Origin: Oscillospiraceae bacterium
Lineage (GTDB): Bacteria > Bacillota > Clostridia > Oscillospirales > Acutalibacteraceae
Direction of reading: 5' to 3'
Length of the DNA: 64,000 nucleotides
Assembly: GCA_015066625.1 (NCBI GenBank)
Contig: SVOC01000004.1
Span: forward strand, 62,001-126,000
The notes under the pieces are model-generated. The model was not told where the DNA came from. It searched no databases and was given only the letters and a program-made list of their open reading frames with translations. Positions 13,216 to 55,447 of the stretch are shown piece after piece. Position 1 is the first letter of the stretch. Every line of letters starts with the position of its first letter. The position numbers and the translations under genes were made by a program.

Positions 13216-13339
13216 AAGTGAAAAATTAAAAGTGAAGAGTAAAAAGTTTCGGATAGGCTTCGTCTATGACCGAATATATAAATGGGTAAGGGCAAAGCCC
13301 TTCCGTAACTATTCACTTTTCACTATTCATTATTCACTT
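13216..13339 (+). repeat. MITE-like element, family A copy 1
   Basis: A 124-bp element starting AAGTGAAAAATTAAAAGTG and ending TATTCACTT, with imperfect terminal inverted repeats made of GTGAAAAGT-like words. Inside are two hairpins. The first is ATAGGC-TTC-GTCTAT (13253-13267, with one G-U pair). The second is AAGGGC-AAA-GCCCTT (13288-13302). It lies between the upstream region of typA and the 3' end of the GPH transporter gene. There is no coding capacity. Confidence 0.88.
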
Positions 13340-13342
13340 CAA

Positions 13343-14833
13343 TTATTCTTCAACCGCAAAGCCTTCGTTTGCACGCTTTTCGGCAAGGGCCGAAAGCATT
13401 TTTTCCTTTTCCTTGCCTGCAATCTTATAGAAGAACATAGGAATTGAGCAGAGGAGCATACTTAAACCGGGAAGGAGAGATACAAGGGTAAACATTGCAA
13501 ATCTCTGATTGAAGGCAACATCCGTTGCAACCATAATTGCTTCCTTTGAAAGCATTGCTGCAGGGTCCATATCAATTGCCATATAGAGCACGATAATACC
13601 GCAGGTTGAAAATGCGTTGCCTATTTTGTTGATAAAGCCCTGACAGGCCGAGCCCAGACCGTTCTCTCTGTGACCCGTGGTAAGCTCCATATAATCAAGG
13701 CTGTCGCAAATCATTGCATAGGAAATAACGTTGATAACGCCCAGAGGAATTGACTGAACAACGATGAAGGGAGCAAGCACATAAATGCTTGCAAGTCCCG
13801 TTGCATAACCGGTAACCGTGGTCACAACACTGGCGGCAAAGCCTGCAAGGCAGGTTGTGATAACGATTTTCTTATAGTCAAACTTCTTCATAAGCATGGG
13901 CATAATAAGGGTTGTGCCGAACATACCTACGATTGTGCAGACCTGGAAAATGGTTTTAACAAGGCTGATGCTGTTAAGAATATCCGCCTGAGTGGGGTTA
14001 TCCGGTCCGATATAGAATGAATAACGGGCAACGTGGATTGCCGCTGCCTGAACAAGATATCTGCCGCTTGAAAGAATGCCCATCATAACAACAAGCATAA
14101 GGGGCTTGCACTTGAAGATTCTTGAAAGGCTGCCGGGCTGACCGGGGATTTTTTTCTTATCGGGAAGAACTACCCTTTCCTTGATATGGAAATAGCAGTT
14201 AACATACATTATTCCGCCGATAACAACCGCAAAAAGTGCAATGAGAAAATACTTTCTCTTTTCAAAGTCAAGAGGATTGGGTTCGTTGCCGTTTGCGGCA
14301 TAAATCGCATTGAGGATAAGGGGAATTGCAAGGAAAAGAACCTCAGGAAGTGCCGAACCGATGCTGTTGATAATCTTTGTGAATGAGATAACGTCGCTTC
14401 TCTCTTTTGAGTTGGGGGTAAGCACGTTGGGGAGAGTCCAGAAAGGAACATCCGCCATTGTGTAAGCCATACCCCAGAGGATGTAAACCACTGCCGAGAA
14501 AATCATAAGGGGAGTTGTATCCATATCGGGGCTGAGATACATAAGGAGTGTAAGAACGGCAATGACGGGAGTAGCCATAATGATATAAGGCTTCATTCTG
14601 CCGTTTTTCATTGACCTTCTGTCAACGATCATACCCATCATGGGGTCGTTGATTGCATCCCATACTCTTGCGGCAAGCATGAGAACAAGGACAAACATAA
14701 GAGGAAGCTGGAGCACGTTTACGTAATAGTCGCTGATGTAGCTTGACATCATTGCATAAATCATACCCTGACCGCCTGCGCCCAGAGCAAACATCCACAG
14801 CTCTTTTTTGCTGACATACTTCTTATTTTCCAT
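13343..14833 (-). CDS. GPH-family (MFS) sugar:cation symporter
   Basis: A 496-aa integral membrane protein with about 12 hydrophobic segments, of the glycoside-pentoside-hexuronide family. Family features are the N-terminal KELWMFALGAGGQGMIYAM (about 8-26) and the loop ARVWDAINDPMMGMIVDR (about 55-72), whose D-x-x-x-D-P-x-x-G pattern is the cation/sugar-coupling signature. Such carriers import sugars or glycosides with Na+ or H+. The ATG at 14833 has AAAGGA upstream and lies 26 bases after the fused GNAT-oxidoreductase gene, so the two are probably co-transcribed. The substrate is likely a glycoside handled by the neighbouring NAD-dependent enzymes. The specific sugar cannot be read from the sequence. 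Confidence 0.9.
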   Translation of the reverse strand: MENKKYVSKKELWMFALGAGGQGMIYAMMSSYISDYYVNVLQLPLMFVLVLMLAARVWDAINDPMMGMIVDRRSMKNGRMKPYIIMATPVIAVLTLLMYLSPDMDTTPLMIFSAVVYILWGMAYTMADVPFWTLPNVLTPNSKERSDVISFTKIINSIGSALPEVLFLAIPLILNAIYAANGNEPNPLDFEKRKYFLIALFAVVIGGIMYVNCYFHIKERVVLPDKKKIPGQPGSLSRIFKCKPLMLVVMMGILSSGRYLVQAAAIHVARYSFYIGPDNPTQADILNSISLVKTIFQVCTIVGMFGTTLIMPMLMKKFDYKKIVITTCLAGFAASVVTTVTGYATGLASIYVLAPFIVVQSIPLGVINVISYAMICDSLDYMELTTGHRENGLGSACQGFINKIGNAFSTCGIIVLYMAIDMDPAAMLSKEAIMVATDVAFNQRFAMFTLVSLLPGLSMLLCSIPMFFYKIAGKEKEKMLSALAEKRANEGFAVEE

Positions 14834-14858
14834 AAAAGCACAATCCTTTCTCACGGAT

Positions 14859-16703
14859 TTATGATTCGTATTCCTTCATTTTTTCTGCCCATTCTGCTTC
14901 GAACTTTTCTTTTATTCCCGCATATACTTCATCGGGAATTTCGGGATTGCCCTTTGAATAGCCGGGTACAAGCATATCACCTGCAACCTTTGCAACGGTG
15001 CATTCCGTATCGTTTCTCCACTTTTCTCTCTCTTCGGGGTTGCGGAGATCGGGAACATCAAGAGGAATACCGCCCTGAAGCACCGAACGGTAAGCAAACA
15101 TACCGGGCAGGAACATATCCATTGCCTCGTATACGTCGATAACATCCATATTGTCTCTGCCTCTTACGGCTTCAACAACATTGTGCATTACATAGAAATC
15201 CGAACCGCCGTGACCTGTGGGTGCGGCAAGGCGTGAGAAGCTGTCCTTTGTTGACACTTCTTCGGGCTCGTTTCTGTTCTGACCCTCAAACTCATCAAGG
15301 TTCACATAGAGTTTATTTACGTGGTCGCTTTCGCATACATCCTCACGGGCACATTCCATTCTGCCCTTTGAACCGTAAATGCTGTACCATACGGAGTTCC
15401 TTGAAGGACCTACGCCATGGATGCTTTTAAGCACTGCACCGTTTTCAAGGGTAATCATTTCGATACCCACGGGACCTGCCTTTGCACCCATTCTTGCCAT
15501 TCTTGCGTTGAAGGGAAGCTCAAAGCCCGTTACCTTGACGGGTTTAAGACCCGTGATATGAACAAGAGGACCGATTGAATGTGTGCAGTAATAGCAGGCG
15601 TGCATTGTGTTACGCCAATGGTCGGGATCGCCGAAGGTGATGTTGTGCCAGATGCTTTCGCAGTTGTGCATATATTCGCCTTCGCCGTATTCAAATTCGC
15701 CAAGAGCGCCCTCACGGTAAAGCTCTCTCATCTTTTTGGGAGCGCCCATATAGCAGTAGTTTTCTGCATAGAAATATTTTTTGCCTGTTCTTTCAACTGC
15801 TTCGATAAGCTCAACAGCTTCCTTCATTGTCTGAACAGGAAGCACCTCGCTGAGCACATGGAAGCCTTTTTCGAGTGCCTTTACGGCAAAAGGTGCGTGC
15901 TCTGTTGCATAGTTTGCAAGAACAACAATGTCCATATCGTGACCCAGGAAGTCCTCATAATTGTTATAGAAAGTGATATCTCTGCCTGCATAGTCCTTCT
16001 TTGCCTTGTCAAGCAGAATATCGTAATTGTCGCAGATAGCAACGGTTTTTGCGCCTCTGACGTTATCGCAGTGGTTAATCATTGTTCTGCCTCTGCCGAC
16101 ACCTACAACACCGATTTTTATAACGGGTGCGGCTTCGACACGCCTGCAAAAGCTGCAATCCTCATAAACCATATCAACGCTGTCAACGCCAAGCTCGCAA
16201 AGCATCCATTCCCAGCGAGCCTTCATATCCTCGTCGTATTCAACTGGAATGAAGCCTGCGGTAAGGTAGCTCTTGACAGCACCTTTACGCCATTCGTCTG
16301 TGGTGAGTTCAATATAATCAACGCCGTCTTCGCTGAGCTTTTTAACTGCAACGCTGTTGAGATATTTGCCCAGACCTTTGCCTCTGAATTCGGTTTTGAT
16401 GCCTACCATATGCACCTCGCCGTGATTGCCTTCGGGGTGGTCAATAGCGGTTACGGTACCAATATGTTCGCCGTTGTAGTCAAGGAAGAAAACGTCTGTT
16501 TCGTAAACAACATCGTCACGTCCGCCTACACATTCATCAAAGAATTCGGGCTTTTCATCGTCTGCAACAAGGCCGTTTTTACAGCATTCAACCCAGGCGG
16601 CTTTATCGCTTTCGTCTTTGTAATTTGAAATGGAATATCCTTCGGGGAGCTCATACTCCTTTACGGGAGTTCCTTTGAGCCAATACATTTTTAACTGTGC
16701 CAT
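14859..16703 (-). CDS. Fusion: GNAT acetyltransferase + Gfo/Idh/MocA (GH109-like) oxidoreductase
   Basis: A 614-aa two-domain protein. Residues about 20-165 are a GNAT domain, with the acetyl-CoA loop EFRGKGLGKYLN (about 101-112). Residues about 192-600 are a Gfo/Idh/MocA oxidoreductase, with the Rossmann start KIGVVGVGRGR and a substrate domain with ENYCYMGAPKKM and HACYYCTHSIGP. Where typical family members have EKP, this protein has SEVLPVQT. That segment, together with the Tyr/Thr-His-x-x-GP region, resembles the NAD-dependent glycosidases of GH109. That match is from memory and needs checking. The ATG at 16703 is preceded by AAAGGTGA. It lies upstream of a GPH transporter in the same run. 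A linker with CSFCRR (about 175-185) separates the domains. Confidence 0.82.
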   Translation of the reverse strand: MAQLKMYWLKGTPVKEYELPEGYSISNYKDESDKAAWVECCKNGLVADDEKPEFFDECVGGRDDVVYETDVFFLDYNGEHIGTVTAIDHPEGNHGEVHMVGIKTEFRGKGLGKYLNSVAVKKLSEDGVDYIELTTDEWRKGAVKSYLTAGFIPVEYDEDMKARWEWMLCELGVDSVDMVYEDCSFCRRVEAAPVIKIGVVGVGRGRTMINHCDNVRGAKTVAICDNYDILLDKAKKDYAGRDITFYNNYEDFLGHDMDIVVLANYATEHAPFAVKALEKGFHVLSEVLPVQTMKEAVELIEAVERTGKKYFYAENYCYMGAPKKMRELYREGALGEFEYGEGEYMHNCESIWHNITFGDPDHWRNTMHACYYCTHSIGPLVHITGLKPVKVTGFELPFNARMARMGAKAGPVGIEMITLENGAVLKSIHGVGPSRNSVWYSIYGSKGRMECAREDVCESDHVNKLYVNLDEFEGQNRNEPEEVSTKDSFSRLAAPTGHGGSDFYVMHNVVEAVRGRDNMDVIDVYEAMDMFLPGMFAYRSVLQGGIPLDVPDLRNPEEREKWRNDTECTVAKVAGDMLVPGYSKGNPEIPDEVYAGIKEKFEAEWAEKMKEYES

Positions 16704-16745
16704 AGTAATCACCTTTTAAAAATTGATAAAAAAATTGACAGTGTC

Positions 16746-16869
16746 AAGTGAACAGTGAATAATGAAAAGTGAATAGTTAAGGAAGGGCGTTGCCCTTACC
16801 TATTTATATAATCGGTCATAGGCGGAGCCTATCCGAAACTTTTCACTCTTCACTCTTAACTTTTCACTT
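16746..16869 (-). repeat. MITE-like element, family A copy 2 (inverted)
   Basis: A 124-bp copy in reverse orientation, between the start of the GNAT-oxidoreductase gene and the 3' end of the reductase gene. It keeps both hairpins: AAGGGC-GTT-GCCCTT (16783-16797) and ATAGGC-GGA-GCCTAT (16818-16832). The ends AAGTGAACAGTGAAT and AACTTTTCACTT are the inverted arms. Confidence 0.9.
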
Positions 16870-16875
16870 TAAAAA

Positions 16876-16895
16876 GGGGCTGTATCAACAGCCCC
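16876..16895 (-). terminator. Terminator of the reductase gene
   Basis: GGGGCTGT-ATCA-ACAGCCCC, followed on the - strand by TTTTT. It lies 16 bases after the stop codon at 16911. Confidence 0.85.
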
Positions 16896-16910
16896 AATAT
16901 GTTCAAAAAA

Positions 16911-17930
16911 TTATTCGCCTTTCATTTCAAGGAGTTTTACAGTGCCGTCATATGAAGCCTGGCTTACCTTGATTGAATCTGTGATAGCTGCCTTGATATC
17001 ATCCTCTGTTGCGCCGAGCTCAACAGCATACTTTCTGTCGATGAAAAGGTTGATATCCATAATATCTGCAAGTCCGTCAACGTCAATACCGCTTTCAATA
17101 CCCTTTGCGGCATATTCTTTCTTGACTCCGCCGAGACCCATACGCATCATCCAGGGAGCAACGCTGATAATCTTTCTGTTTTCTCCCATGCCCCTTGCAG
17201 CGTAAACAATTTTAAGGAATTCCTTCCATGTCTGGTTATACATGCTGATGGGCCATGCCTTTGCGCCCTTTGATTTTTCTGCTGCGCCGACAATAACCTC
17301 ACCAACCTGGCGTACGGTAAGCATTGCTGTGCCGCCGCCGGGATACATTGTGAACGGAAGCTTATCCATCATCTTGATCTGCTCAATAAGGATAACCCAA
17401 ACAGGCTTTCTGCCGGGCTGTGTGCCGAAGATGTAAGGAAGTTCAAGTACTGCAACATCGAAATTATCATCTGCAAATGAGAATGCAACTTCTTCCTGAG
17501 CAATACGGCTTCTGATGTAGGGATGCTTCTCTGTGAGCTTCATATCGGGACGCTGCTTTGCAAGGTATGCAAAGTATGAACCGAGAATAACAGCACTCTT
17601 CATGCCGACTTCCTTACAGAGAGGAAGAATTCTTTCGAGAGGCTGAATGTTGTATTTGTAGTATGCATCGTAAACGGGTGCGGGGAATTCAACTCTTTCA
17701 TCGATACCTGCTGCGAAAACAAAGCAATCATAGCCTTCCATCATAGCCTTGATTTCGTCGTCTGTCTTTGCATAGATGTTGCAGAATTCAAGCTCCATTT
17801 CCTCGGGAATGGGAGCGCCTTCGGGGAGAGGAGGAAGAGCAACGCTCTTTACCTGATGGCCTCTTTCGATGAAAATTCTTGCAGCTTCACTGCCGAGAAG
17901 ACCTGTGCCGCCAATCATAAATACTTTCAT
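16911..17930 (-). CDS. NAD(P)-dependent epimerase/dehydratase-like (SDR) protein
   Basis: A 339-aa extended-SDR-like protein with the Rossmann dinucleotide motif GGTGLLGSEA (about 7-16) and an acidic/hydrophobic stretch CFVFAAGIDER (about 73-83). The usual Tyr-x-x-x-Lys catalytic pair is not clear: YFAYLAKQRP (about 145-154) could supply Tyr and Lys. Enzymes of this kind act on sugars or nucleotide sugars. The ATG at 17930 has a near-perfect AGGAGGG ribosome site, and an upstream ATG at 17960 has none. It lies in the same direction as the fused oxidoreductase and transporter, suggesting a shared catabolic role, though its own terminator at 16876 and an element separate it from them. Confidence 0.75.
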   Translation of the reverse strand: MKVFMIGGTGLLGSEAARIFIERGHQVKSVALPPLPEGAPIPEEMELEFCNIYAKTDDEIKAMMEGYDCFVFAAGIDERVEFPAPVYDAYYKYNIQPLERILPLCKEVGMKSAVILGSYFAYLAKQRPDMKLTEKHPYIRSRIAQEEVAFSFADDNFDVAVLELPYIFGTQPGRKPVWVILIEQIKMMDKLPFTMYPGGGTAMLTVRQVGEVIVGAAEKSKGAKAWPISMYNQTWKEFLKIVYAARGMGENRKIISVAPWMMRMGLGGVKKEYAAKGIESGIDVDGLADIMDINLFIDRKYAVELGATEDDIKAAITDSIKVSQASYDGTVKLLEMKGE

Positions 17931-18020
17931 TGGGATTACCCTCCTTGAAAAAATATACAAGTATAATATATATTTATTTTTTTAATAAGTCAATAGAGTA
18001 TTGCAAAATTAGACATTTTT

Positions 18021-18144
18021 GAGTGAATAGTGAATAATGAAAAGTGAATAGTTAAGGAAGGGCGTTGCCCTTACCCATTTATATAATCGGTCATAGGCAG
18101 AGCCTATCCGAAACTTTTCACTATTCACTTTTAACTTTTCACTT
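18021..18144 (-). repeat. MITE-like element, family A copy 3 (inverted)
   Basis: A 124-bp reverse-orientation copy with hairpins AAGGGC-GTT-GCCCTT (18058-18072) and ATAGGC-AGA-GCCTAT (18093-18107). Its right end overlaps the stop codon of the Eis-like gene: on the - strand the sequence reads TAAGTGAAAAGT, and the TAA at 18145-18143 is shared. Confidence 0.9.
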
Positions 18145-19297
18145 AAACATTATCCTGCTGACCTGCGTAGAAATCAACGGGGAACCAATTCTGCGTGAAC
18201 GAAGGTGCGGAAAGACGCTTTTCCGAATACTGACCTGCAAAGAATGCGGTGGCTTCAAGGTGGTCAAGCTCAAAATCGGGCTGTGCATCGGTTTCCGTAA
18301 CAATGACGTTTTTGCCGTCAACGGTAATTGCAAGCTTTTCATCCTTTTTGTAGCCGTGAACAAGCACATTCAGTGTGCCGCTGCAAAGATTCATTCTCTG
18401 TGCCTTGATCGCAAGGAAGCCTTCAATGAACTTTGCATAGTTAAGAATGTTCGTCTGCTCAACGTGGCATACGGACATTCCGCAGCAGATTTTCTGCATA
18501 TACGAGCACAGTGCGGTGTCGTATACAGGTACCGTAAATGCAACGCTTTCGCATTCCGTTGTTTTCATTGCACAAAGGAAAAAATCAAGCAAATCATCAA
18601 CGTTGACAGCCTTGAATTCGGAAAAATGACCCTTGCAGTTTGTGGTGAAATATCCTTTGAAACTGTCGCCGTCATAAACCGCATAAGGGGTGCTGCGCCA
18701 GCTTCTGAGAATATCAAGCATATCCTCTTCGTTACGGACAACATAATAGGGCTGAGCCTCGTTAAACTCATTGATTTTTGCGAAAAGCTCCGTATCTTTT
18801 TCCGTAATTTCCCTTGCGGTAAAGGTCGTTTCCGTATTGCCGTTTCTCAGACGGCTGATGTTGCCGATGTTGATTTCAAAATGAAGTGCATTGCCCGAAG
18901 GTGCATAGCCGAAATATTCATATCTCTGCCTCTGACCGCCCAGAATTGAGTAGTCATAGCCTTCCTCAATCATCCATGCCGTAACATCGTTCATCAGCTC
19001 AATCATATAGCCCTTGCGGCGGCAGTCCTTTGCAACGCCTACGTTACCGATGCCCATAATCTTCATCTTTCTTCCTGCGGCAACGGCTTCAAGGGGAAAA
19101 CAGCCTATGGCGGCTTTGATAACACCGTCCTCCTTGAGAATCATATTCCTTTCGCCGCAATTGAATTTATCCTTGTAAAGCTTGGGAAGAAGGTCCATAA
19201 AATTGTTGTGGGGTTCTTCCGAGAAAAATATATCGTTAAGTGCCGCAATAAGCTCTTTTTCGTCGCTTTTACAGCCGAAGCCTTTGGTGATTTCCAT
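18143..19297 (-). CDS. Eis-like GNAT N-acetyltransferase
   Basis: A 384-aa protein with the three-part layout of Eis-type acetyltransferases: an N-terminal GNAT domain (about 1-150) with the acetyl-CoA motif VGVAKDCRRKGYMIELM (about 86-102), a second GNAT-like middle domain, and a C-terminal SCP2-like sterol-carrier fold (about 285-384). The family acetylates amines, including aminoglycosides in mycobacteria. Here the substrate is unknown. The start at 19297 lies just after the stop of the upstream carboxypeptidase gene, whose last bases ATGAGGTAA provide its ribosome site. The stop codon is formed within the end of a repeat element. Confidence 0.85.
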   Translation of the reverse strand: MEITKGFGCKSDEKELIAALNDIFFSEEPHNNFMDLLPKLYKDKFNCGERNMILKEDGVIKAAIGCFPLEAVAAGRKMKIMGIGNVGVAKDCRRKGYMIELMNDVTAWMIEEGYDYSILGGQRQRYEYFGYAPSGNALHFEINIGNISRLRNGNTETTFTAREITEKDTELFAKINEFNEAQPYYVVRNEEDMLDILRSWRSTPYAVYDGDSFKGYFTTNCKGHFSEFKAVNVDDLLDFFLCAMKTTECESVAFTVPVYDTALCSYMQKICCGMSVCHVEQTNILNYAKFIEGFLAIKAQRMNLCSGTLNVLVHGYKKDEKLAITVDGKNVIVTETDAQPDFELDHLEATAFFAGQYSEKRLSAPSFTQNWFPVDFYAGQQDNV

Positions 19298-19301
19298 ATT
19301 T

Positions 19302-20675: not shown

Positions 20676-20718
20676 TTCAAAACACCGTAAATCAATTATT
20701 TTGTCACAGACAAAACCA

Positions 20719-20724
20719 ATTATA
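20719..20724 (-). promoter_or_regulatory. Extended -10 for the carboxypeptidase gene
   Basis: The - strand reads TGTTATAAT, with the hexamer at 20724-20719, 44 bases before the start codon. No good -35 is evident, consistent with extended -10 dependence. Confidence 0.5.
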
Positions 20725-20786
20725 ACATAAAATAATGAATAAATAAATAGTTTTGCATACGATTTTTATTTTTAACGGGATGTGCC

Positions 20787-20815
20787 TTGATTTTTTCGGT
20801 GGGTTGAGGTATATT
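20787..20815 (+). promoter_or_regulatory. Sigma-A promoter for the phosphoesterase gene
   Basis: TTGATT (20787-20792), a 17-base spacer, TATATT (20810-20815). It lies 35 bases upstream of the start at 20851. Confidence 0.65.
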
Positions 20816-20850
20816 AAGATAAATAATTAAACTTCGGGAGCGTTTGCTTT

Positions 20851-21543: not shown

Positions 21544-21546
21544 AAC

Positions 21547-21570
21547 AAAATCCGTCGCAAGGCGGATTTT
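21547..21570 (+). terminator. Hairpin-T tract between phosphoesterase and GH39-like gene
   Basis: AAAATCCG / CGGATTTT arms (21547-21554 / 21563-21570) followed by TT and then the ribosome site of the next gene. It may only partly stop transcription, since the next gene starts 17 bases later. Confidence 0.55.
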
Positions 21571-39540: not shown

Positions 39541-39682
39541 AATTATGAATTCGTAATGCATAATGCGTAATTATTGACGGGTTACACCCGTACCCATTTC
39601 GTACGCACCCGTTAACAATCTTTTTATACAATCGGAGCGAAGCGACCCTTAATTACGAATTGCGAATTAAGAATTACGAATT
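39541..39682 (-). repeat. MITE-like element, family B copy 1 (inverted)
   Basis: A 142-bp element between rpsO and pnp. The ends are AATTATGAATTCGTAATG and ATTAAGAATTACGAATT, complementary to each other. It contains the shared hairpin, here ACGGGT-TAC-ACCCGT (39577-39591), and CGGAGCGAAGCGACCC near the other end. The rest of the 39415-39757 gap is unremarkable sequence. Confidence 0.85.
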
Positions 39683-39757
39683 GATCAGGGATTGGATTTA
39701 TTGCTAAACCCAAACCTGCCGCCTGTGGAAATAAAATTTTACAGAGAGGTAAAAGAA

Positions 39758-41995: not shown

Positions 41996-42025
41996 TTTTG
42001 CTGTTTATATCGGAGTACATTACTC

Positions 42026-42055
42026 TTTGCACTTTGAACTTTGCACTTTGCACTT
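42026..42055. repeat. Solitary element arm, family C words
   Basis: A 30-base run of CTTTGCACTTTGAACTTTGC-like words that ends in CACTTAA. It resembles one arm of the family A/B elements, but no partner arm or internal hairpin is present. It sits between the pnp terminator and the phosphoesterase terminator. Confidence 0.55.
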
Positions 42056-42081
42056 AAAAAGCACCCCGAAGGGTGCTTTTT
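42056..42081 (-). terminator. Terminator of the secreted phosphoesterase gene
   Basis: GCACCC-CGAA-GGGTGC (42061-42076) flanked by A and T tracts on both sides, so it works on either strand. It lies three bases from the gene's stop codon. Confidence 0.85.
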
Positions 42082-45437: not shown

Positions 45438-45449
45438 CAAGGCTTTTTT

Positions 45450-45632
45450 AATTCGTAATGCGAAATTCGTAATTAAGGGTCGCTTCGCTCCGGATTTATA
45501 TATGTTTGCATTTGCACGGCGACGGTTATTGTAACTTTATTTCAATTTTAAAAAAATTTTTGGCTGTTGAAAATTCAATATAATGGGTAAGGGCGGAGCC
45601 CTTCCGACATTGCGCATTACACATTGCGAATT
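45450..45632 (+). repeat. MITE-like element, family B copy 2
   Basis: A 183-bp element. The left arm AATTCGTAATGCGAAATTCG and the right arm GCGCATTACACATTGCGAATT-like sequence are complementary. It carries GGGTCGCTTCGCTCCGG, matching copy 1 in reverse, and the shared hairpin AAGGGC-GGA-GCCCTT (45589-45603). A TATAAT at 45579-45584 sits inside it but lacks a good -35. It makes up most of the gap between the exporter and fucU. Confidence 0.82.
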
Positions 45633-45694
45633 GAATCTACCCCTAACTGTTCACTATACATTCAAAATAATAAAAGCAGAAAGGATAAATCACC

Positions 45695-46125: not shown

Positions 46126-46246
46126 AAGTGAAAAGTTAAAAGTGAAGAATGAAAAGTTTCAGATAGGCTCCGCCTATGACCGAATGTATTGGGTACGGGT
46201 GAAACCCGTCCTTAACTATTCACTTTTCATTATTCACTATTCACTT
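46126..46246 (+). repeat. MITE-like element, family A copy 4
   Basis: A 121-bp copy between fucU and the kinase gene. Hairpins: ATAGGC-TCC-GCCTAT (46163-46177) and ACGGGT-GAA-ACCCGT (46195-46209). In the second, both arms differ from copies 1-3 yet still pair. It is inside an apparent operon, so it is likely transcribed. Confidence 0.9.
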
Positions 46247-47727: not shown

Positions 47728-47755
47728 ATTCATCGAAATAGAAAGGAAGATTACA

Positions 47756-49552
47756 ATGGCAAAAAGCAGACTTATCGGCGATTATCCCGTTATCGGTATT
47801 CGCCCCATCATCGACGGCAGAAGAGGACCTCTCAAAGTAAGAGAATCCCTTGAAGACCAGACCATGAACATGGCAAAGGCAGCTAAGGCTCTCTTTGAGG
47901 AAAATCTCCGTTATTCAAACGGCGAACCCGTAAAGGTTGTTATCGCTGACACAACAATCGGCCGTGTTGCAGAGGCAGCAGCCTGTGCAGCAAAGTTCAA
48001 GAAGGAAGGCGTTGACATCACCCTTTCCGTTACTCCCTGCTGGTGCTACGGTTCAGAAACAATGGATATGGATCCCAACACAATCAAGGGCGTATGGGGC
48101 TTCAATGCTACCGAAAGACCCGGTGCCGTTTACCTTGCAGCCGTTCTTGCAGCTCATGCACAGAAGGGTCTCCCCGCATTCGGTATCTACGGCAAAGACG
48201 TTCAGGATGCTGACGACACATCAATGCCCGACGACGTTAAAGAAAAGCTTCTCCGCTTTGCACGCTCAGCCGTTGCAGTTGCAACAATGAGAGGCAAGAG
48301 CTACCTGCAGATCGGCTCAACCTGCATGGGTATTGCAGGCTCGGTTATTGACCCCGACTTCATTGAAGAATATCTCGGCATGAGAGTTGAATCCGTTGAC
48401 GAGGTTGAAATCATCCGTCGAATGACCGAAGGCATCTATGATGAGGCTGAATATCAGAAGGCTCTTGCATGGACAAAGGCAAAGTGCAAGGAAGGCTTCG
48501 ATAAGAACCCCGAATTCGTAAGAAAGAGCGATGAACAGAAAGAAAAGGATTGGGAATTCGTTGTCAAGATGATGTGCATCATCAAGGACCTTATGAACGG
48601 CAACGAAAATCTTCCCGCAGGCTGCGAAGAAGAAGCTGTTGGCCATAACGCTATTGCAGCAGGCTTCCAGGGTCAGAGACAGTGGACAGACTTCTATCCC
48701 AACGCTGACTTTGCAGAGGCACTTCTCAACACCTCGTTCGACTGGGAAGGCGTAAGAGAGCCCTACATTCTTGCAACAGAAAATGACGTTCTCAACGGCA
48801 TCGGTATGCTGTTTATGAAATTACTTACAAACAGACCTCAGATGTTTGCAGACGTGCGTACTCATTGGAGTGCAGATGCAGTCAAGAGAGTTACAGGCTA
48901 TGACATCGAAGGCAAGGCAAAGGATGCAGGCGGTTTCATCCACCTTATCAACTCAGGTGCCTGCTGCCTTGATGCCTGCGGCGAAGTCAAGGACGAAAAC
49001 GGCAACGGTATCATGAAAGAGTGGTACAACGTTACCGAAGAAGACGCTGACAAGATTCTTGAAGCTACAACCTGGAACGCAGCCGACAACGGCTATTTCA
49101 GAGGCGGCGGATATTCATCACGCTTCCTTACCAGAGCTGAAATGCCTGCAACAATGATTCGTCTTAACCTCGTTAAGGGTCTCGGCCCCGTTCTTCAGAT
49201 TGTTGAAGGCTGGACTGTTAACCTTCCCGACGAAGTTTCAGACATTATCTGGAAGAGAACAGACTACACATGGCCCTGCACATGGTTCGCACCCAGATGC
49301 AACGGCGAGGGTCCCTTCAAGTCAGCTTACGACCTTATGAATAACTGGGGTGCAAACCACGGTGCTATTTCATACGGTCACATCGGTGCAGATATCATCA
49401 CAATGGCATCAATGCTCCGTATTCCCGTTGCTCTCCACAACGTTCCCGAAGAGAAAATCTTCCGTCCTGCTTGCTGGGGTGCATTCGGCACGAAAGACCT
49501 TGAAGGCGCAGACTTCAGAGCTTGCGAAAACTACGGTCCTCTCTACAAATAA
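47756..49552 (+). CDS. fucI: L-fucose isomerase
   Basis: A 598-aa Mn-dependent isomerase converting L-fucose to L-fuculose, close in length to the E. coli enzyme (591 aa). The family's blocks are seen: [22 protein letters not shown] at the N-terminus, [22 protein letters not shown], the metal region [11 protein letters not shown] and [10 protein letters not shown] (about 329-352), and the C-terminal [13 protein letters not shown] with a catalytic His. The start has AAAGGAAG upstream. Codon use is strongly biased, suggesting high expression. Fucose is common in mucin and milk glycans, which fits a gut habitat. Confidence 0.96.
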
Positions 49553-49564
49553 TCAAAAAAATAA

Positions 49565-49592
49565 GACCTGCACGGTTCGTTCCGTGCAGGTC
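49565..49592 (+). terminator. Terminator of the fucose operon
   Basis: GACCTGCACGG / CCGTGCAGGTC (49565-49575 / 49582-49592), six-base loop, then ATTTTTTCC. Confidence 0.9.
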
Positions 49593-49601
49593 ATTTTTTC
49601 C

Positions 49602-49629
49602 TTGCTTTTTCGTCAGAAAATGATATAAT
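49602..49629 (+). promoter_or_regulatory. Promoter of the PI-PLC-like gene
   Basis: TTGCTT (49602-49607), 16-base spacer, TGATATAAT extended -10 (TATAAT at 49624-49629). It overlaps the tail of the fucose operon terminator. Confidence 0.6.
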
Positions 49630-49660
49630 AATTCCGATTTGGAAAAAGGAGAGAATAAAA

Positions 49661-50797
49661 ATGATTGAAGTTATCCGCCGCATTGTGGGATTCGTCCCGT
49701 CGCTCATATCGTTAATAACGGCGTTTTTTACCGTGCTTTCGGTAAATACGGAGCTGTTTGAAACCGATAAAATCAATCAGATAAACCGTATTGAAGCCCT
49801 TGAACAGGCATATGAAAACGGTGAAATTCTGCCCGTTGACGAAGCCTCATTTTTTGACGGAAATCTTGAAGAGGAGCTGAAAGCGGGAATGAAATTGAAC
49901 GAAGTCAGCTTTCTCGCAACTCATAACAGCTATCAGGCACCCGCTTTCGATGTAACAAAAAAGCTTTTCAGCAGTCTTTCAGGCATAACCTTTGGTATTT
50001 ATGACGGCAAAAAGGCGGACTTTTGGAGCGAAACTCCCACAGACCAGCTTAACTGCGGTATCCGCAGCCTCGAAATTGATATCGAAACCTTTGACCGTGA
50101 CGGAGAAGTTTCCTTCACCTGTATGCACAGCCCCTATTTCGAGATGTCAACTTATTGCAGTGACTTTGCATTGGGTATGAAAGAGATTGCGATGTGGTCA
50201 GACAATAATCTGGGTCATCTTCCCGTAACAATTATTATCGAACCCAAAAGTGCATTTTTGCCTATGAAAAATATGAAGTCTTTCAGTGTTGATTATGCCG
50301 TTGAGCTTGACAAATTGCTGAGAGAAACTCTGGGTGAAAAGCTTTTCACACCTGCGGATATGCTCCGTGGGTATGAATCTTTCGGCGAAATGAGAGCAGC
50401 GGATGACTGGTGTAAAATCAGTGATATGCAGGGCAAGATACTTGTTCTTCTCCACGAAGGAAATGTTACGGAAGGATACATTGCGCGTGACCCGTCAATA
50501 AAATCTCAGGCTATGTTCCCTATGCTCAGGGAAGAGGATATTGACCGTGACTGCACATCGTTTATTCTTTGCAATGACCCGGAAACTCTGATTGAAATCC
50601 GTGAAGAAATCGACGAAAAAAAGGTGATTGCCCGTACCCGCGCGGACAATTTTGATTCTGTTTCGGAAAAATGCCGTGAACAGGCATTTGAAAGCAAAGC
50701 GCAGATAATTTCAACAGATTATCCGCCCCGAACCGATTCAACAGCAGAAAGCTATATCGTTTCGTTCGGAAAGCTCACGACAATGAGAAAAAGATAA
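49661..50797 (+). CDS. Exported Ca2+-dependent PI-PLC-like phosphodiesterase
   Basis: A 378-aa protein with an N-terminal signal or anchor (about 8-28), then a TIM-barrel phosphodiesterase. The motif FLATHNSYQAP (about 85-95) holds the first catalytic His, CGIRSLEIDIETFDRDG (about 128-144) the metal-binding acidic residues, and TCMHSPYF (about 149-156) the second His. These are the pieces of the bacterial calcium-dependent phosphatidylinositol phospholipase C group, which differs from the metal-free B. cereus enzyme. The substrate could be phosphoinositides or related glycerophosphodiesters. It stands alone in its direction with its own promoter and is convergent with galU. Confidence 0.78.
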   Translation: MIEVIRRIVGFVPSLISLITAFFTVLSVNTELFETDKINQINRIEALEQAYENGEILPVDEASFFDGNLEEELKAGMKLNEVSFLATHNSYQAPAFDVTKKLFSSLSGITFGIYDGKKADFWSETPTDQLNCGIRSLEIDIETFDRDGEVSFTCMHSPYFEMSTYCSDFALGMKEIAMWSDNNLGHLPVTIIIEPKSAFLPMKNMKSFSVDYAVELDKLLRETLGEKLFTPADMLRGYESFGEMRAADDWCKISDMQGKILVLLHEGNVTEGYIARDPSIKSQAMFPMLREEDIDRDCTSFILCNDPETLIEIREEIDEKKVIARTRADNFDSVSEKCREQAFESKAQIISTDYPPRTDSTAESYIVSFGKLTTMRKR

Positions 50798-50802
50798 AAA
50801 AT

Positions 50803-50830
50803 CACCCCGTGTTGTGATGAACACGGGGTG
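50803..50830. terminator. Bidirectional terminator
   Basis: CACCCCGTGT / ACACGGGGTG (50803-50812 / 50821-50830), with T-rich tails on both sides, between the converging PI-PLC-like gene and galU. Confidence 0.85.
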
Positions 50831-50842
50831 TATTTATGTTAC

Positions 50843-51727
50843 TTAAAATGTTTTTACAAGTTCTTTGAGGTATGCCTTGAAGTCGTCGCCGATTTCAGGG
50901 TGGTCAAGAGCAACCTCGCAGTTTGCCTTCATAATGCCAAGCTTGTTACCCATATCGTAACGCTTGCCGTCGAAATCATAAGCAAGAAGCTTGCCTGCCA
51001 TACCGAGCTCGGTAAAAACATCCGTAAGATAGAATTCCTTGCCTTCGGGAGTAGCTGCAAGACCTTTTTCGATAAGCTCAAAGGTTTCGGGAGGCATGAC
51101 AATTCTGCCCAGAATAGCATAAAGTGAAAGAATCTGGTCGGGTGTGGGCTTTTCGATGATTCTTGTGCAGTTCATTGCTCTGTCTTCGCCCTCAATGGGT
51201 GAAACGTCAAGTGTGCAGTAAAGACGGATGAGTTCTTCAGGAACTTCATTTACACCCACAACGCCCTTGCCGTATTTTTCGTAGCAGCGTGTAAGCTGTG
51301 CGGTAACCGGGTCATCGGAAACAATAACGTCATCGCCGTAAAGCACCGCAAAGGGTTCGTCGCCTATAAAGGATTTGCCGCAGAGAAGTGCGTGGGCAAG
51401 ACCCTTTGTTTCTTTCTGACGGATGAAATATATGTTTGCAAGGTTTGCAACCGCTTTAACATCTTCATAAAGCTTTTCCTTTGAAGGCACGCCTTTAAGG
51501 CCTGCTTCAAGCTCAAAGGAATGGTCAAAATGGTCCTCAATTGCGCCCTTGCCTCTGTTTGTGATGATAAGGATATCCTCAATGCCTGCGGCAACAGCTT
51601 CTTCAACAATATACTGAATTGCAGGCTTATCAACGATGTTGAGCATTTCCTTGGGTACTGATTTTGATGCGGGAAGAACTCTTGTGCCGAGACCTGCGGC
51701 GGGAATAATCGCTTTTCTGACTTTCAT
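50843..51727 (-). CDS. galU: UTP--glucose-1-phosphate uridylyltransferase
   Basis: A 294-aa enzyme making UDP-glucose for wall and capsule polymers. Its nucleotidyltransferase motif is KAIIPAAGLGTRVLPASK (about 4-21), with VPKEMLNIVDKPAIQY next, the metal-binding YGDDVI (about 130-135), then GVNEVPEE and FYLTDVF. The start at 51727 has a GGAGGAAA site. The alternate ATG 15 bases upstream overlaps this site. The upstream gene on the same strand is the RING/zinc-ribbon membrane protein, 18 bases away, so the pair may be co-transcribed. Confidence 0.95.
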   Translation of the reverse strand: MKVRKAIIPAAGLGTRVLPASKSVPKEMLNIVDKPAIQYIVEEAVAAGIEDILIITNRGKGAIEDHFDHSFELEAGLKGVPSKEKLYEDVKAVANLANIYFIRQKETKGLAHALLCGKSFIGDEPFAVLYGDDVIVSDDPVTAQLTRCYEKYGKGVVGVNEVPEELIRLYCTLDVSPIEGEDRAMNCTRIIEKPTPDQILSLYAILGRIVMPPETFELIEKGLAATPEGKEFYLTDVFTELGMAGKLLAYDFDGKRYDMGNKLGIMKANCEVALDHPEIGDDFKAYLKELVKTF

Positions 51728-51745
51728 ATCAATTTCCTCCAAAGG

Positions 51746-52819
51746 TTAAATAATTTCTCTTATGAAATCCGCTATATAATAAAGTGCGTTTATAAGCATT
51801 GTTTCGCCCAGAAGGCTTGCGGCGAATGCCAACGGTGCAAGACCGCCTTTGTGGGCAATCATCATTCTCCTCATATGGCTTGCCTGAACTGTTTCGTTTA
51901 TGAGTTTGAGGTCGTCAAGGATTTTTTTGTAATAAAGACGGTTTGCCGCAAGAGCACAGATAAGGCGGAGAACCGTAGTTACCGACATTGTTATAAGCAA
52001 CGGTTTTTTTGCTTTTTCAATAAATTCTTTTGATGCCTTTTCTATTTCCGGCGCAAGCTCTTCAAGCTGTTCCTCCGTCATTTCTTCGTAAGCACCCGTT
52101 TGGGCAACTTTGTTGCTGTATTCATCGGCTGCGGCGGTAACCTGATCTGCCAGACCCGAAAGAAGAATTGATGCAGTTACGAATGCCACAAGGAAGAATG
52201 CTCCTGCCTTGTAAAGCTTTCTGTAAAAGAACCAGTAGGGTGCAAAGAAAAATGCGGCAAAGTTAAAGCTGATTTTTTTACCCGATTCAAATTTTTTGAA
52301 TTTTCTGATATATCGGTGGGGACTTGCCTGAACATAGGTTGCAAGGTCGCCTGCTGTATTTTCTCCTATTTTTTCATCTGCGGGAATATCCGTGCCTGCA
52401 ATGTAGCCTGCATTGCCGCCCGATATATTCAGCGGAGCTCCGCACTGATTGCAGTGAAGCGCATCATCGGAATTTTCTTTGCCGCAGAAGGCACATTTTT
52501 TGCTTCCTTGCTCTTCCTGCTGACCGAAAAGTGCACCGCAGTTGCCGCAGTGAAGGGCGTCGGCAGGGCTTTCGCTTTTACAGATGTGACAAATACGAAC
52601 ATCCGACTTCTCTTCTGTTACGGCAGGCTCTTCATAAACCTCTGTTTTATTTTTACTCCACACATAGCCCGAAGCGTGCAGGTCGTCGTTGCCGCATCTT
52701 CCGTTTTCCATCCAGCATTCTCTGTGCTGAGGGGTTGCGCAAACAGGGCACACAACAACATCGTCGCCCTCTGCCAGCGGCTTTCCGCATACGGGGCAGG
52801 GCACATTTTCATAATTCAC
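51746..52819 (-). CDS. RING-like / zinc-ribbon DUF2628 membrane protein
   Basis: A 357-aa protein with three kinds of parts. At the N-terminus (about 8-42) is a RING-like finger, CPVC then CPVCATPQHRECW and GRC, as in the bacterial RING family 1. Two zinc ribbons follow: CHIC...CGNC (about 77-93) and CAFC...CNQC (about 109-126). The C-terminal half is a DUF2628-type membrane domain, with FNFAAFFFAPYWFFYRKLY (about 197-215) and about three hydrophobic segments. Proteins of this plan have no known function. The bacterial RING may act as a zinc-binding scaffold; ubiquitin ligase activity is not implied. It lies upstream of galU in the same direction. Confidence 0.78.
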   Translation of the reverse strand: MNYENVPCPVCGKPLAEGDDVVVCPVCATPQHRECWMENGRCGNDDLHASGYVWSKNKTEVYEEPAVTEEKSDVRICHICKSESPADALHCGNCGALFGQQEEQGSKKCAFCGKENSDDALHCNQCGAPLNISGGNAGYIAGTDIPADEKIGENTAGDLATYVQASPHRYIRKFKKFESGKKISFNFAAFFFAPYWFFYRKLYKAGAFFLVAFVTASILLSGLADQVTAAADEYSNKVAQTGAYEEMTEEQLEELAPEIEKASKEFIEKAKKPLLITMSVTTVLRLICALAANRLYYKKILDDLKLINETVQASHMRRMMIAHKGGLAPLAFAASLLGETMLINALYYIADFIREII

Positions 52820-52979
52820 GGGCTTTCACCTCACAATATTGCCATAATAATACATCATATATATTACTCGATTGTTACGAAAAAAGCAATTATTAATTAA
52901 AAATTAATTCTATCTTCTTTACTTTTTTTATTTTTATAGTTATAATATACCATGAAATATTATGCACGGGAGATTATAT

Positions 52980-54098
52980 ATGATTCAGTTTGAAGAATTA
53001 AGACTTTCACTTCTCGAATACGAAGAAAAGCTGAACCAGCTTCGTGAGGCTCTGGGCCTTGACGATATGGTTAAAGAGGTTGAAGCTCTTGAAGCTCAGA
53101 CCGCAGAGGAAGGCTTCTGGAATGACCTTGCAAATTCACAGAAGGTTCAGCAGAGAATAAGCCAGCTCAAAAACAAGGTTGGTGCCTACAATTCACTTGA
53201 AAATGAGTTCAACGATACCCTTGTTCTTATTGAGCTTTCAAATGAGGAAGAAGATCTGGAAATGCTTGATGAGTGTAAGGCAGGCGTTGAAAGCTTTGTT
53301 TCAAAGCTTGATGCAATGACCCTGAGCACTCTGCTTTCGGGCGAATACGATTCAAAGAACGCCATTCTTACCTTCCACGCAGGTGCGGGCGGTACCGAAG
53401 CTCAGGACTGGAATCAGATGCTTGTAAGAATGTATCAGCACTGGGGCGAAAAGCACGGCTTCAAAATCAGCATGCTTGACTTCCTTGACGGCGATGAAGC
53501 AGGCCTTAAATCTGCGGTTGTGCTTGTTGAAGGCGAAAATGCCTACGGTTATCTCAAAGGCGAAATGGGCGTTCACAGACTTGTCCGTGTTTCACCCTTC
53601 GATGCTTCGGGCAGACGCCACACTTCGTTTGCGTCACTTGAAGTTATGCCTGAAATTGACGACACCGTTGAGGTTGAAATCAACCCCGATGACCTGAGAA
53701 TCGACTACTACCGTTCAAGCGGTGCAGGCGGTCAGAAGGTTAACAAAACATCATCTGCGGTTCGTATCACACATATTCCCACGGGTATTGTATGTGCCTG
53801 CCAGGTTGAAAGAAGCCAGCATCAGAACAGAGATGTTGCCATGAAAATGCTTAAATCAAAGCTTATCGAAATCAAGGAAAGAGAGCATCTTGACAAGATT
53901 GACGATATTAAGGGAGAGCAGAGAGAAATTGCCTGGGGCAGCCAGATTCGTTCATATGTATTTATGCCCTATACCCTTGCAAAGGACCACAGAACAGGCT
54001 TTGAAGCAGGTAACATCAACGCTGTTATGGACGGCGATATTGACGGCTTCATCAATGCTTATCTTAAGATGGAATCCCTTAAGGACAGCGGAAATTAA
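52980..54098 (+). CDS. prfB: Peptide chain release factor 2 (no programmed frameshift)
   Basis: RF2 recognises UAA and UGA. The 372-aa protein has the SPF recognition tripeptide at S205-P206-F207 and the catalytic GGQ at 250-252, in SSGAGGQKVNKTSS. The region where many bacteria have a CUUUGA +1 frameshift site (about residues 20-30, NQLREALGLDDM) is uninterrupted here, with no in-frame UGA, so autoregulation by frameshifting is absent. The ATG at 52980 follows an upstream GGGAGA. The 18-base upstream ATG at 52962 is less well placed. It is followed by cyclase and sugar transferase genes. Confidence 0.96.
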   Translation: MIQFEELRLSLLEYEEKLNQLREALGLDDMVKEVEALEAQTAEEGFWNDLANSQKVQQRISQLKNKVGAYNSLENEFNDTLVLIELSNEEEDLEMLDECKAGVESFVSKLDAMTLSTLLSGEYDSKNAILTFHAGAGGTEAQDWNQMLVRMYQHWGEKHGFKISMLDFLDGDEAGLKSAVVLVEGENAYGYLKGEMGVHRLVRVSPFDASGRRHTSFASLEVMPEIDDTVEVEINPDDLRIDYYRSSGAGGQKVNKTSSAVRITHIPTGIVCACQVERSQHQNRDVAMKMLKSKLIEIKEREHLDKIDDIKGEQREIAWGSQIRSYVFMPYTLAKDHRTGFEAGNINAVMDGDIDGFINAYLKMESLKDSGN

Positions 54099-54122
54099 TT
54101 AAAAACAAAAGGTGGGATAACC

Positions 54123-54740
54123 GTGAAACTGATTGATATTTCAAGAAAATTCTTCGGCGGCGAGGTTTATCCCGGTGACCCTATGCCCGAGGCGGAGCAG
54201 ATTTGTGAAATCGGCGAAGCTTCGGAGTGCAACCTTTCGGTTATTCACGCTTGCGTACACAACGCAACCCATGTGGATGCGCCCCTTCACTTTATCAGTG
54301 ACGGGGATACAATAGAAAACCTGCCCATTGAAAGCTTCATAGGTCCCTGCACGGTTATGCAGGTGCCTGCAGGAGTTATAACGGGCGATTATGTTGACCG
54401 CCATTTCCCTAAAAAATGCGGACGTCTGCTTATAAAAGGCGGCGGCAAAGCGTTTTTTATGGATTCATCTGCCCAGGAGCTTGCAGAAAGAGGGCTTGTG
54501 CTTATCGGTACGGACTCACTTTCCGTCGGCTGCAAGGGTAACCAGACAGGGCCGCACAAGGCATTTTTGCAGAATAATGTTGCCGTGCTCGAAGGGCTTG
54601 ACCTTTCACAGGTGCAGCCCGGCGAATATTTCCTCTTCGCTCCGCCCGTTTGCTATAACGGTCTGGAAGGTGCACCCGCAAGGGCTGTGCTGATTGAGGA
54701 TTATATTTTCTGGTCAGGGTCAAAAAGAGGTGTAAAATGA
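54123..54740 (+). CDS. Cyclase family protein (KynB-like metal-dependent hydrolase)
   Basis: A 205-aa protein of the cyclase/kynurenine formamidase family. The metal motif is HNATHVDAPLHF (about 46-57), the H-x-x-x-H-x-D-x-P-x-H signature. The rest follows the family: VYPGDP, GRLLIKGG, LIGTDSLSV (about 136-144) and the C-terminal FAPPVCYNGLEGAPARAVLI. Known members hydrolyse N-formylkynurenine or similar amide/lactone bonds, with a divalent metal. The substrate here is unknown. The start at 54123 has a GGTGGG site, and the end overlaps the next gene by four bases (ATGA). Confidence 0.88.
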   Translation: MKLIDISRKFFGGEVYPGDPMPEAEQICEIGEASECNLSVIHACVHNATHVDAPLHFISDGDTIENLPIESFIGPCTVMQVPAGVITGDYVDRHFPKKCGRLLIKGGGKAFFMDSSAQELAERGLVLIGTDSLSVGCKGNQTGPHKAFLQNNVAVLEGLDLSQVQPGEYFLFAPPVCYNGLEGAPARAVLIEDYIFWSGSKRGVK

Positions 54741-55327
54741 AACGGTTTTTCGATTTCACGGTAAGCCTGCTGGTAATTCTGGCGCTGCTTCCCGTATTCC
54801 TGATAATCGGTATTATCATTGCAATCGATGCGGGCAACCCCGTTATCTATAAGCAATACCGTGTGGGAAAGGATAACAAGCTTTTCTACATCTATAAATT
54901 CAGAACGATGAAAAATAACACAAGGCTTGCCGCTACAAAGGATTTGACGGAGGCGGACAGCGTTATTACCAAAAGCGGCAGAATTCTCCGCAAGACAAGT
55001 CTTGACGAATTGCCTCAGCTTTTCAATGTGCTGAAAGGCGATATGAGTTTTGTGGGTCCCAGACCCCTTATCCCCGAAGAGAAGGAAATAAGGCAAATCC
55101 GCAAGGATTACGGAATATACTCCGTCAGACCCGGTATTACGGGATGGGCTCAGGTCAACGGCAGAGATATGCTCAGCGACGAAGAAAAAGCCCTGTTTGA
55201 CAAGGAATACATTGACAAACAGAGCCTGATTTTCGATATCAAAATTATGATTAAAACCGTTATGGTAGTGCTCAAAAGAGAGAATATTTCCGAAGGCGGC
55301 GAGCCGGATAATAAACATAAGGTTTAA
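54737..55327 (+). CDS. Bacterial sugar transferase (undecaprenyl-phosphate type)
   Basis: A 196-aa enzyme of the WbaP/PglC-like monotopic phosphoglycosyltransferase family. It has the N-terminal re-entrant membrane segment (about 5-30), YKFRTM (about 53-58), the catalytic Asp-Glu as KTSLDELPQLFNVLKGDMSFVGPRP (about 87-111) and the C-terminal RPGITGWAQVNGRD. It would start a polysaccharide by moving a sugar phosphate to undecaprenyl phosphate. Unusually, no other glycan assembly genes lie next to it. It is translationally coupled to the cyclase gene. Its last codons overlap the start of a repeat element. Confidence 0.9.
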   Translation: MKRFFDFTVSLLVILALLPVFLIIGIIIAIDAGNPVIYKQYRVGKDNKLFYIYKFRTMKNNTRLAATKDLTEADSVITKSGRILRKTSLDELPQLFNVLKGDMSFVGPRPLIPEEKEIRQIRKDYGIYSVRPGITGWAQVNGRDMLSDEEKALFDKEYIDKQSLIFDIKIMIKTVMVVLKRENISEGGEPDNKHKV

Positions 55328-55447
55328 GTGAAAAGTTAAAAGTGAAGAGTGAAAAGTTTCGGATAGGCTCCGCCTATGACCGATTATATTTTGGGTGTGG
55401 CAACGCCCACCCTTAACTATTCACTTTTCATTATTTACTGTTTACTT
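55326..55447 (+). repeat. MITE-like element, family A copy 5
   Basis: A 122-bp copy that starts inside the sugar transferase stop codon (TTTAAGTGAAAAG) and ends TTTACTTAA near the VanY-like stop. Hairpins are ATAGGC-TCC-GCCTAT (55363-55377) and a second, GGGTG-T-GGC / GCC-CACCC (55393-55412), with one bulged T. Both ends read TTAAGTR when taken inward. Confidence 0.9.

Follow-up and report, generated by a model that had tools for sequence, protein, structure and literature searches.

Heptamer-armed hairpin elements of modular design between the genes of an Oscillospiraceae bacterium

Miniature inverted-repeat transposable elements (MITEs) are small, non-coding, dispersed sequences with inverted ends, for which element-free sites exist in relatives of the host. 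Small mobile (dispersed) repeats were reportedly described from Nostoc and other cyanobacteria by Elhai et al. in 2008 and may come close to the elements treated here, five copies of which, termed family A, lie in a 64,000-nucleotide stretch of the genome of an uncultured gut Oscillospiraceae bacterium of the Clostridia (GCA_015066625.1, contig SVOC01000004.1, positions 62,001 to 126,000; hereafter the window). Repetitive extragenic palindromes (REP) are short palindromes linked to the REP-associated tyrosine transposase (RAYT), and their inverted doublets, known as bacterial interspersed mosaic elements (BIME) or REPIN, are the apparent replicating unit (PMC3116915). A GTAG or CGTC tag marks two large REP groups (PMC3733652), and the accessible part of the respective paper on GTAG repeats mentions neither 'Firmicutes' nor 'Clostrid'. 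The short tandemly repeated repetitive (STRR) sequences of cyanobacteria are tandem intergenic words of usually 7 bp that are said to form hairpins and to be of unknown function (PMC2670836). Intergenic direct repeats of the heptamer TAACTGA, mostly located upstream of start codons in sets of 2-6, occur in Beggiatoaceae, Cyanobacteria and Bacteroidetes, and a role in translational regulation was suggested for them (PMC4679880). According to a survey of 7006 genomes, no class of intergenic tandem repeat is more abundant in prokaryotes than heptamers, whose function is unknown (PMC6344855). Our literature search, which covered few subscription papers, did not reveal hairpin elements with heptamer arms described from Clostridia.

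Family A is a genuine family of mobile hairpin elements that have heptamer arms and a modular build, and belongs to the REP-doublet kind of miniature element. Its members share with REP doublets the short palindromes, the inverted doublets, the extragenic location, the tandem clusters, the lack of coding capacity and stems that differ between families, but they lack the GTAG/CGTC tag, about four heptamers lead each hairpin, and no RAYT was found in the genome; moreover, the link to Y1 transposases is absent in the order and weak in the genus. With STRR sequences they have in common the tandem 7-bp intergenic words, whereas the tract of family A stands at a fixed register to a bulged hairpin, and its mobile unit consists of two modules and is missing from the corresponding sites of relatives. 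The TAACTGA repeats are intergenic 7-mers as well, and their reverse complement AGTTATC resembles the AGTKAAN heptamers of family A; paired hairpins such as those of family A are not described in the accessible part of that paper. MITEs, finally, are matched in small size, lack of coding capacity, dispersal, inverted ends and empty sites in relatives, but family A has no target-site duplication, no parent transposon was seen for it in the stretches read and its ends are modular. Since the duplication is missing, these are not classical MITEs.

Copies in the genome and element-free sites in relatives

The first-pass annotation of the window had described five dispersed copies of one element with inverted arms and two hairpins. 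All five were confirmed in position; each is 121-126 bp long (design length ~122 bp), shows inverted terminal arms and two hairpins upon sequence inspection (5/5 copies) and has no coding capacity. The copies are given below with the strand on which the element reads from its L to its R module; G-numbers denote other genomes, and C-numbers denote contigs of the own genome (G000; 2.37 Mb, 97.7% complete).

13216..13339, + strand: family A element, 3 bp from the stop of the major facilitator superfamily (MFS) transporter open reading frame (ORF) 13343-14854 (-); site without element in G020
16746..16869, - strand: family A element, adjoining a hairpin that by eye resembles a terminator, downstream of ORF 16911-17960 (-); site without element in G020
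18021..18146, - strand: family A element, overlapping the stop end of ORF 18143-19297 (-); G020 has ~30 nt of other sequence instead
46126..46246, + strand: family A element between same-strand FucU/RbsD and FGGY kinase genes; G020 and G036 without element
55326..55447, + strand: family A element between convergent sugar-transferase and VanY genes (Pfam)

The close relative G020, whose flanks are 88-97% identical to those of the window copies, lacks the element at 5/5 window sites. At the 55326 site, G020, G036, G039 and G022 are empty and G023 carries an element in the opposite orientation. A comparison of 13 sites of contig C31 with G020 gave 11 that were alignable on both sides (83-95% identical), with family A at 0/11; G020 has an AGTGCAA-type heptamer tract in place of family A at site 90768 and ~480 nt of other sequence at site 98620. 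Family A multiplied in the G000 lineage after the split from its close relative G020.

A search of G000 with the 55326 copy as query resulted in 53 matches, some copies being counted in both readings, and in 28 near-full-length copies (at least about 110 of the 135 nt of the query) of the family to which the window five belong. The module pattern, with at most one mismatch, matched 59 times (29 forward, 30 reverse) vs 0 times for the reversed control pattern. Twenty-six copies of the 28 were aligned and have a mean pairwise identity of 0.854 (range 0.645-0.984). Mobilisation in trans, as proposed by the first-pass annotation, is well supported by these further copies, by the element-free orthologous sites in G020 for all five window copies and by the lack of coding capacity; a family confined to the window or fixed at orthologous places, which would have spoken against mobility, is not what the 28 copies and the five empty sites reveal. 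Among the signs of transposition which that annotation had suggested to look for, further copies and empty sites in a relative were thus found and target duplications were lacking.

Within the genus, family A matches at E 0.001 or better are present in 13/38 genomes (own included), with one weaker match each in G020 and G014; weak matches were obtained for 7/23 more distant genomes. The best copy of G023 is 93% identical to the 55326 copy, while the host flanks there are 75% and 82% identical. An element identity above the flank identity would be explained both by horizontal movement and by constraint.

The copies are unevenly distributed, as the segment from 79 to 134 kb of contig C31 carries 11/28 near-full copies. 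Arrays of the form (L)n(R)m are found there, with n of 1-4 and m of 1-2 and an L stacking unit of ~62 bp, and modules of different heptamer families can be combined. In the outer modules of these arrays, the arms are frequently shortened or of the AGTGCAA type; insertion of family A into the centre of older elements, with module numbers altered afterwards by slippage, would be expected to leave such a pattern. Three further copies (on C16, C17 and C7; stretches L002, L007 and L013, near 1475-1625) occupy one and the same position within a short TATACTTTTTGAAA-type inverted repeat that already holds an L-type hairpin. At C31:79800-80020, two similar terminator-like hairpins flank the element in G000, and G020 has one such hairpin.

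Anatomy and folding of the module

The element consists of two copies of one module in inverted arrangement, in the order arm, hairpin, A+T spacer of ~9 nt, second hairpin and second arm, with both arms reading inwards. Each module follows the plan of four AGTGAAN heptamers, AGTT plus 2 nt and a bulged hairpin of the type GG/6 bp/3-nt loop/6 bp/2-nt bulge/CC. In the window copies, the arm heptamers conform to AGTKAAN and end with AGTT, with a few bases varying; the heptamer is best described as a hexamer plus N, in which position seven is free, positions two and four each alternate between two bases and the rest is mostly fixed. L modules have the stem ATAGGC/GCCTAT and the bulge GA, and R modules have the stems AAGGGC, GTGGGC, ACGGGT or GCGGGC and mostly the bulge AC. 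The 55326 copy, whose AA/TT ends supply the last bases of both neighbouring stop codons, is divided, from its sequence, as follows.

55326..55358, + strand: L arm, four AGTKAAN heptamers, then AGTT
55359..55383, + strand: L hairpin, TCGG-ATAGGC-TCC-GCCTAT-GA-CCGA
55384..55392, no strand: A+T spacer separating both modules
55393..55412, - strand: R hairpin, read outside-in
55413..55447, - strand: R arm, heptamers inversely oriented

Folded as single-stranded DNA and compared to dinucleotide shuffles, the five copies gave z scores of -5.0, -6.8, -7.0, -6.9 and -6.1, with 0/200 shuffles as good for each; RNA folds of three strands of two copies gave z scores of -6.0 to -7.9. From the fetched loci, 123 distinct modules with the hairpin geometry after a heptameric stretch were collected, and 49/123, picked for at least 5/6 stem pairs, served to build an alignment (A1) and a module model (R1). 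At its foot, the hairpin mostly has AGTT plus 2 nt, both among the 123 collected modules and among the 49 aligned ones, and the GTAG/CGTC tetranucleotide tag was not found there. Because the modules had been picked for pairing, the 99.2% of paired positions in the aligned modules is not an independent result. In a register test that is independent of this choice, though its loci had been fetched around element matches, arms were chosen by arm sequence alone, and a stem of at least 5/6 pairs was present at the fixed register after 47/52 own arms and 32/41 arms of relatives, compared to 1.4 (own) and 1.6 (relatives) for shuffled tails. For 43 own arms and 24 arms of relatives, the GG and CC were also in place. 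Covariation was assessed on 48 distinct aligned modules and yielded 54 double-change cells of 384 and a score of 0.407, each reached by 0/500 shuffles. By these two measures, the stem changes are compensatory, in rows that had been chosen for pairing.

Pairing between the variable seventh bases of the two arms is limited to 57/268 cells; we use this raw share alone, as the respective shuffle (mean 119) mixes both readings of the quasi-palindromic elements. At C25:13327 and C31:157772, arms of different heptamer families are combined within one element. Since the seventh bases rarely pair and families mix, the two arms look like inward-reading binding arrays rather than like the halves of one stem, and pairing between the arms was rejected as the cause of their likeness. 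A role of the heptamers as stops in three frames, with TGA every 7 nt, was also considered; it is possible for AGTGAAN and fails for AGTGCAA arms, which hold no stop.

Related families and distribution

As one design, family A is real for the five copies listed above, but the claim of the first-pass annotation has to be widened, as the window holds members of the same plan with other heptamers and family A is therefore one of several families. Three further features of this kind are located in the window.

39541..39684, no strand: family B related element with AATTCGN heptamers; G020 and G039 sites without element
42017..42061, no strand: family C AGTGCAA-type heptamer tract without hairpin module, adjoining a terminator-like hairpin
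45447..45639, no strand: related element, AATTCGN-type arms at either end, middle part longer; R hairpin geometry as in family A; left end missing in G020 and G036

Tandem 7-bp units between genes occur in the window, which contains 12 period-7 arrays vs a mean of 0 in 5 shuffles; among the other periods of 4-15, arrays were detected for 6 (one), 14 (seven, a harmonic of 7) and 15 (one). At the orthologue of the 55326 site, G008 has GTGATAT words that alternate with short hairpins of differing stems and end in an R-type hairpin. This array is another heptamer-hairpin architecture.

The R1 model has matches in 52/245 genomes of the order, belonging to 15 families, with approximate E-values and a bias of the model towards AGTGAA arms. 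Because R1 selects such arms, the conservation of the arms among its matches is by construction. At most of the inspected order loci, a heptamer tract adjoins hairpins of other sequence, several of them next to terminator-like hairpins. A scan for period arrays, which is free of the AGTGAA bias, was applied to 20 stretches (366 kb) chosen around R1 matches and detected 61 arrays of period 7, compared to other periods as follows: 5 (1), 6 (7), 8 (1), 9 (12), 10 (2), 11 (3) and 12 (12). AATGAGG, AGAGGTT and AATGCAG are further heptamers of these stretches, and in G079 period 9 is commoner than period 7. In a phylum sample, a stricter pattern was present in 6/299 genomes including the own; we make no claim beyond the order, since the pattern outside the own genome is at background level (5/298 vs 3/298 for the reversed control). 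In viruses, the same pattern was found in 13 stretches of 12 viral contigs; by eye, some of the stretches (L178, L182 and L183) contain a second, inverted tract and others a single tract. In the viral stretches L177 and L180, which are the same sequence, and in L184, the AGTGAAN tract runs straight into an ATG with no hairpin (genes unannotated). Four tandem AGTTATC heptamers, the reverse complement of the published TAACTGA repeat, are present in 30 viral stretches (L188-L217).

Insertion and mobilisation

Family A inserts without target-site duplication and in frequent contact with gene ends, and its modules stack and recombine. The mean flanking repeat was 2.49 nt vs 2.63 nt in re-paired flanks (71 entries, with both readings of quasi-palindromes included), and across 16 registers of 33 intact-end entries, some of them in both readings, there was no significant excess of direct repeats, the strongest being reached by 36/200 controls. 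A TTAA target duplication, hinted at by single sites, was rejected because TTAA is present on both sides in only 2/33 entries. The flanks going into the elements are T-rich. When 29 element clusters were compared with the called ORFs, with one further cluster dropped at a locus edge and element edges set by fixed offsets, 12/29 element edges were located within 5 nt of a called stop codon. In intergenic regions of G020, 6% of insertion points fall 0-5 nt after a stop (16% with each region weighted equally). Part of the excess at the elements follows from the comparison itself, since stop codons in all frames are present in the arms and no overlap is permitted in the control. The gene context of the 29 clusters (21 tandem, 6 convergent and 2 divergent) was not clearly different from the background (51, 18 and 12); the 55326 copy was counted as tandem in this tally and is convergent according to its Pfam-supported neighbours. 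A Pfam scan of ten genes near window elements assigned nine to ordinary families and one to no family, and the FucU/RbsD and FGGY kinase genes around the 46126 copy probably form one operon.

The reading that we favour, tentatively and with slightly less than even confidence, is that family A consists of non-autonomous mobile elements, built as inverted pairs of heptamer-hairpin modules, which are moved in the manner of REP doublets by an enzyme supplied in trans. Such an enzyme would read each module inwards from its outer end; the four heptamers would serve as a binding array similar to iterons, and the bulged GG/CC hairpin as a putative cut-site structure. It may act on single-stranded DNA and join the product to gene ends that are rich in T, in some cases within older copies, and slippage between the 62-bp direct repeats could then give rise to the (L)n(R)m arrays.

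Several observations weigh against this reading. No mobilising enzyme was identified among the Y1, RAYT, Y2 and reverse transcriptase searches: a profile made from five genus RAYT proteins detected no RAYT in G000, IS91-type Y2 transposases occur in 0/38 genus genomes (own included), and a reverse transcriptase was not found in G000 (in the genus, reverse transcriptases occur in 5/13 bearing vs 13/25 other genomes). In the order, Y1 transposases are present in 22/52 module-bearing vs 69/193 other genomes (Fisher p 0.42), i.e. there is no association, where the module and Y1 counts come from two draws of 245 genomes that are identical as far as listed. The preference for gene ends is partly an artefact, as the stops of the arms would themselves end a read-through ORF. 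Two covariation measures did not stand out from the shuffles, namely the pairs with a double change (4, reached by 158/500) and the further pair types (9, reached by 438/500). The single-strand step, finally, is suggested by the anatomy of the elements and by analogy. With regard to a transposase hidden within the dense C31 cluster, the ORFs around it look like housekeeping genes as judged on the first residues of the called ORFs, without confirmation by a family scan, and this candidate was rejected.

The strongest rival holds that these are REP/REPIN sequences moved by RAYT, or PATE-like elements moved by IS200/IS605 TnpA, both of which are Y1 HUH transposases, and that the enzyme has since been lost or broken in this genome. 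We consider this unlikely, though it accounts for the inverted doublets of bulged hairpins, their extragenic location, the tandem arrays and the missing duplication. G000 contains one Y1_Tnp match (C4:94831-95184, minus strand; L042) with an in-frame TAG, which we take, by its residues, to be an IS200-type frame; this stop-interrupted frame also speaks for the rival. In the genus, any Y1 transposase detected by Pfam is present in 12/13 bearing vs 10/25 other genomes (p 0.002), or in 12/13 vs 14/25 (p 0.03) when Pfam and the RAYT profile are combined, both without correction for kinship, and we regard this link as weak. RAYT alone shows no link (8/13 element-bearing vs 10/25 other genomes, p 0.31; a marginal G027 match that falls on its IS200-type gene is omitted), and the association is lost in the order sample. 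In addition, no AGTGAA module was found within 1.5 kb of the Y1 frame of G000, whose exact insertion sequence ends are unmapped, and the RAYT genes of relatives carry GTAGGGG words and not AGTGAA heptamers. RAYT and IS200, which looked attractive as mobilisers in the genus, are therefore not favoured, though the weak genus link of Y1 genes taken together persists. GTAGGGG words are located inside the coding frames of the RAYT-like genes of relatives in L120, L121, L122, L123, L125, L126 and L128 and at the edge of that in L127; they are absent from the RAYT-like genes of L129 and L131.

Less probable again is a spread with no dedicated enzyme, in which template switching and ectopic priming, in the course of replication or repair around terminators and the ends of genes, would multiply palindromic modules. 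The lack of a candidate enzyme, the T-rich flanks, the tandem (L)n(R)m arrays and the variation of hairpins among genomes in which period 7 persists all agree with it, but it does not readily explain why the whole 122-bp element was copied like a unit with defined ends to many distant sites, and why four heptamers and a hairpin are kept at a fixed register.

Classical MITEs, i.e. internally deleted DNA transposons whose terminal inverted arms are recognised by a DDE transposase, are an improbable explanation. Inverted ends of ~33 bp, short length, absence of an ORF, intergenic location and element-free sites in a relative would all suit them, and the first-pass annotation had termed the elements MITE-like. 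In the strict sense that term does not hold: no target-site duplication was detected in any register, modules stand alone, in tandem or in mixed pairs, unlike one fixed internally deleted transposon, and neither an autonomous relative nor a parent transposon with the same ends was noticed in the stretches read, which make up less than the whole genome.

The first-pass annotation had also considered transcript-end or mRNA-stability modules. By eye, with no terminator scan applied, the hairpins run into the A+T spacer or a heptamer arm and show no U-tract. The composite at C31:103619-103870 is located between a T-box leader (L032:13360-13579 = C31:103359-103578) and an ORF starting at 103901 that appears pheS-like by its first residues. 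A strong terminator is unlikely because of the missing U-tract, the copy between the same-strand FucU and FGGY kinase genes and this composite. Rfam gave no match within the window at gathering score and nothing but a T-box and a ZTP riboswitch in C31:70000-129999; known cis-acting RNAs were therefore rejected. An effect on transcript ends or stability is possible as a side effect, but the sites are not conserved. Structured RNAs or 3'-end elements under selection at these genes (terminators, stabilisers) are very improbable as the main explanation, as their strong RNA fold, edges near stop codons and compensatory stems are outweighed by element-free orthologous sites in close relatives, by equally common orientations, by the missing Rfam match and U-tract, and by insertions between FucU and kinase genes and between the T-box and the pheS-like gene.

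Coming back to mobile elements moved in trans, some heptamer tracts of this genome are arms of elements whose movement postdates the separation of two close relatives. Part of the seven-base repeats that many bacteria carry without explanation may have the same origin, a proposal that can be tested. As G000 carries the family and G020 does not, the mobiliser can be sought by comparing their gene contents, and a mobiliser that proved to be a new single-strand transposase would represent an enzyme type of its own, one that recognises tandem 7-mers. A wider and rather doubtful proposal is that a large part of the unexplained bacterial intergenic heptamer tracts are recognition arms (iterons) of an unrecognised class of mobile hairpin modules, which would be moved by an enzyme that reads 7-nt words on single-stranded DNA beside a fast-changing hairpin and would be common to many families of the order and their phages.

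Elsewhere in the window, positions 2559-2764 and 3412-3617 form a 206-nt direct repeat of 75% identity that overlaps the neighbouring ORFs.

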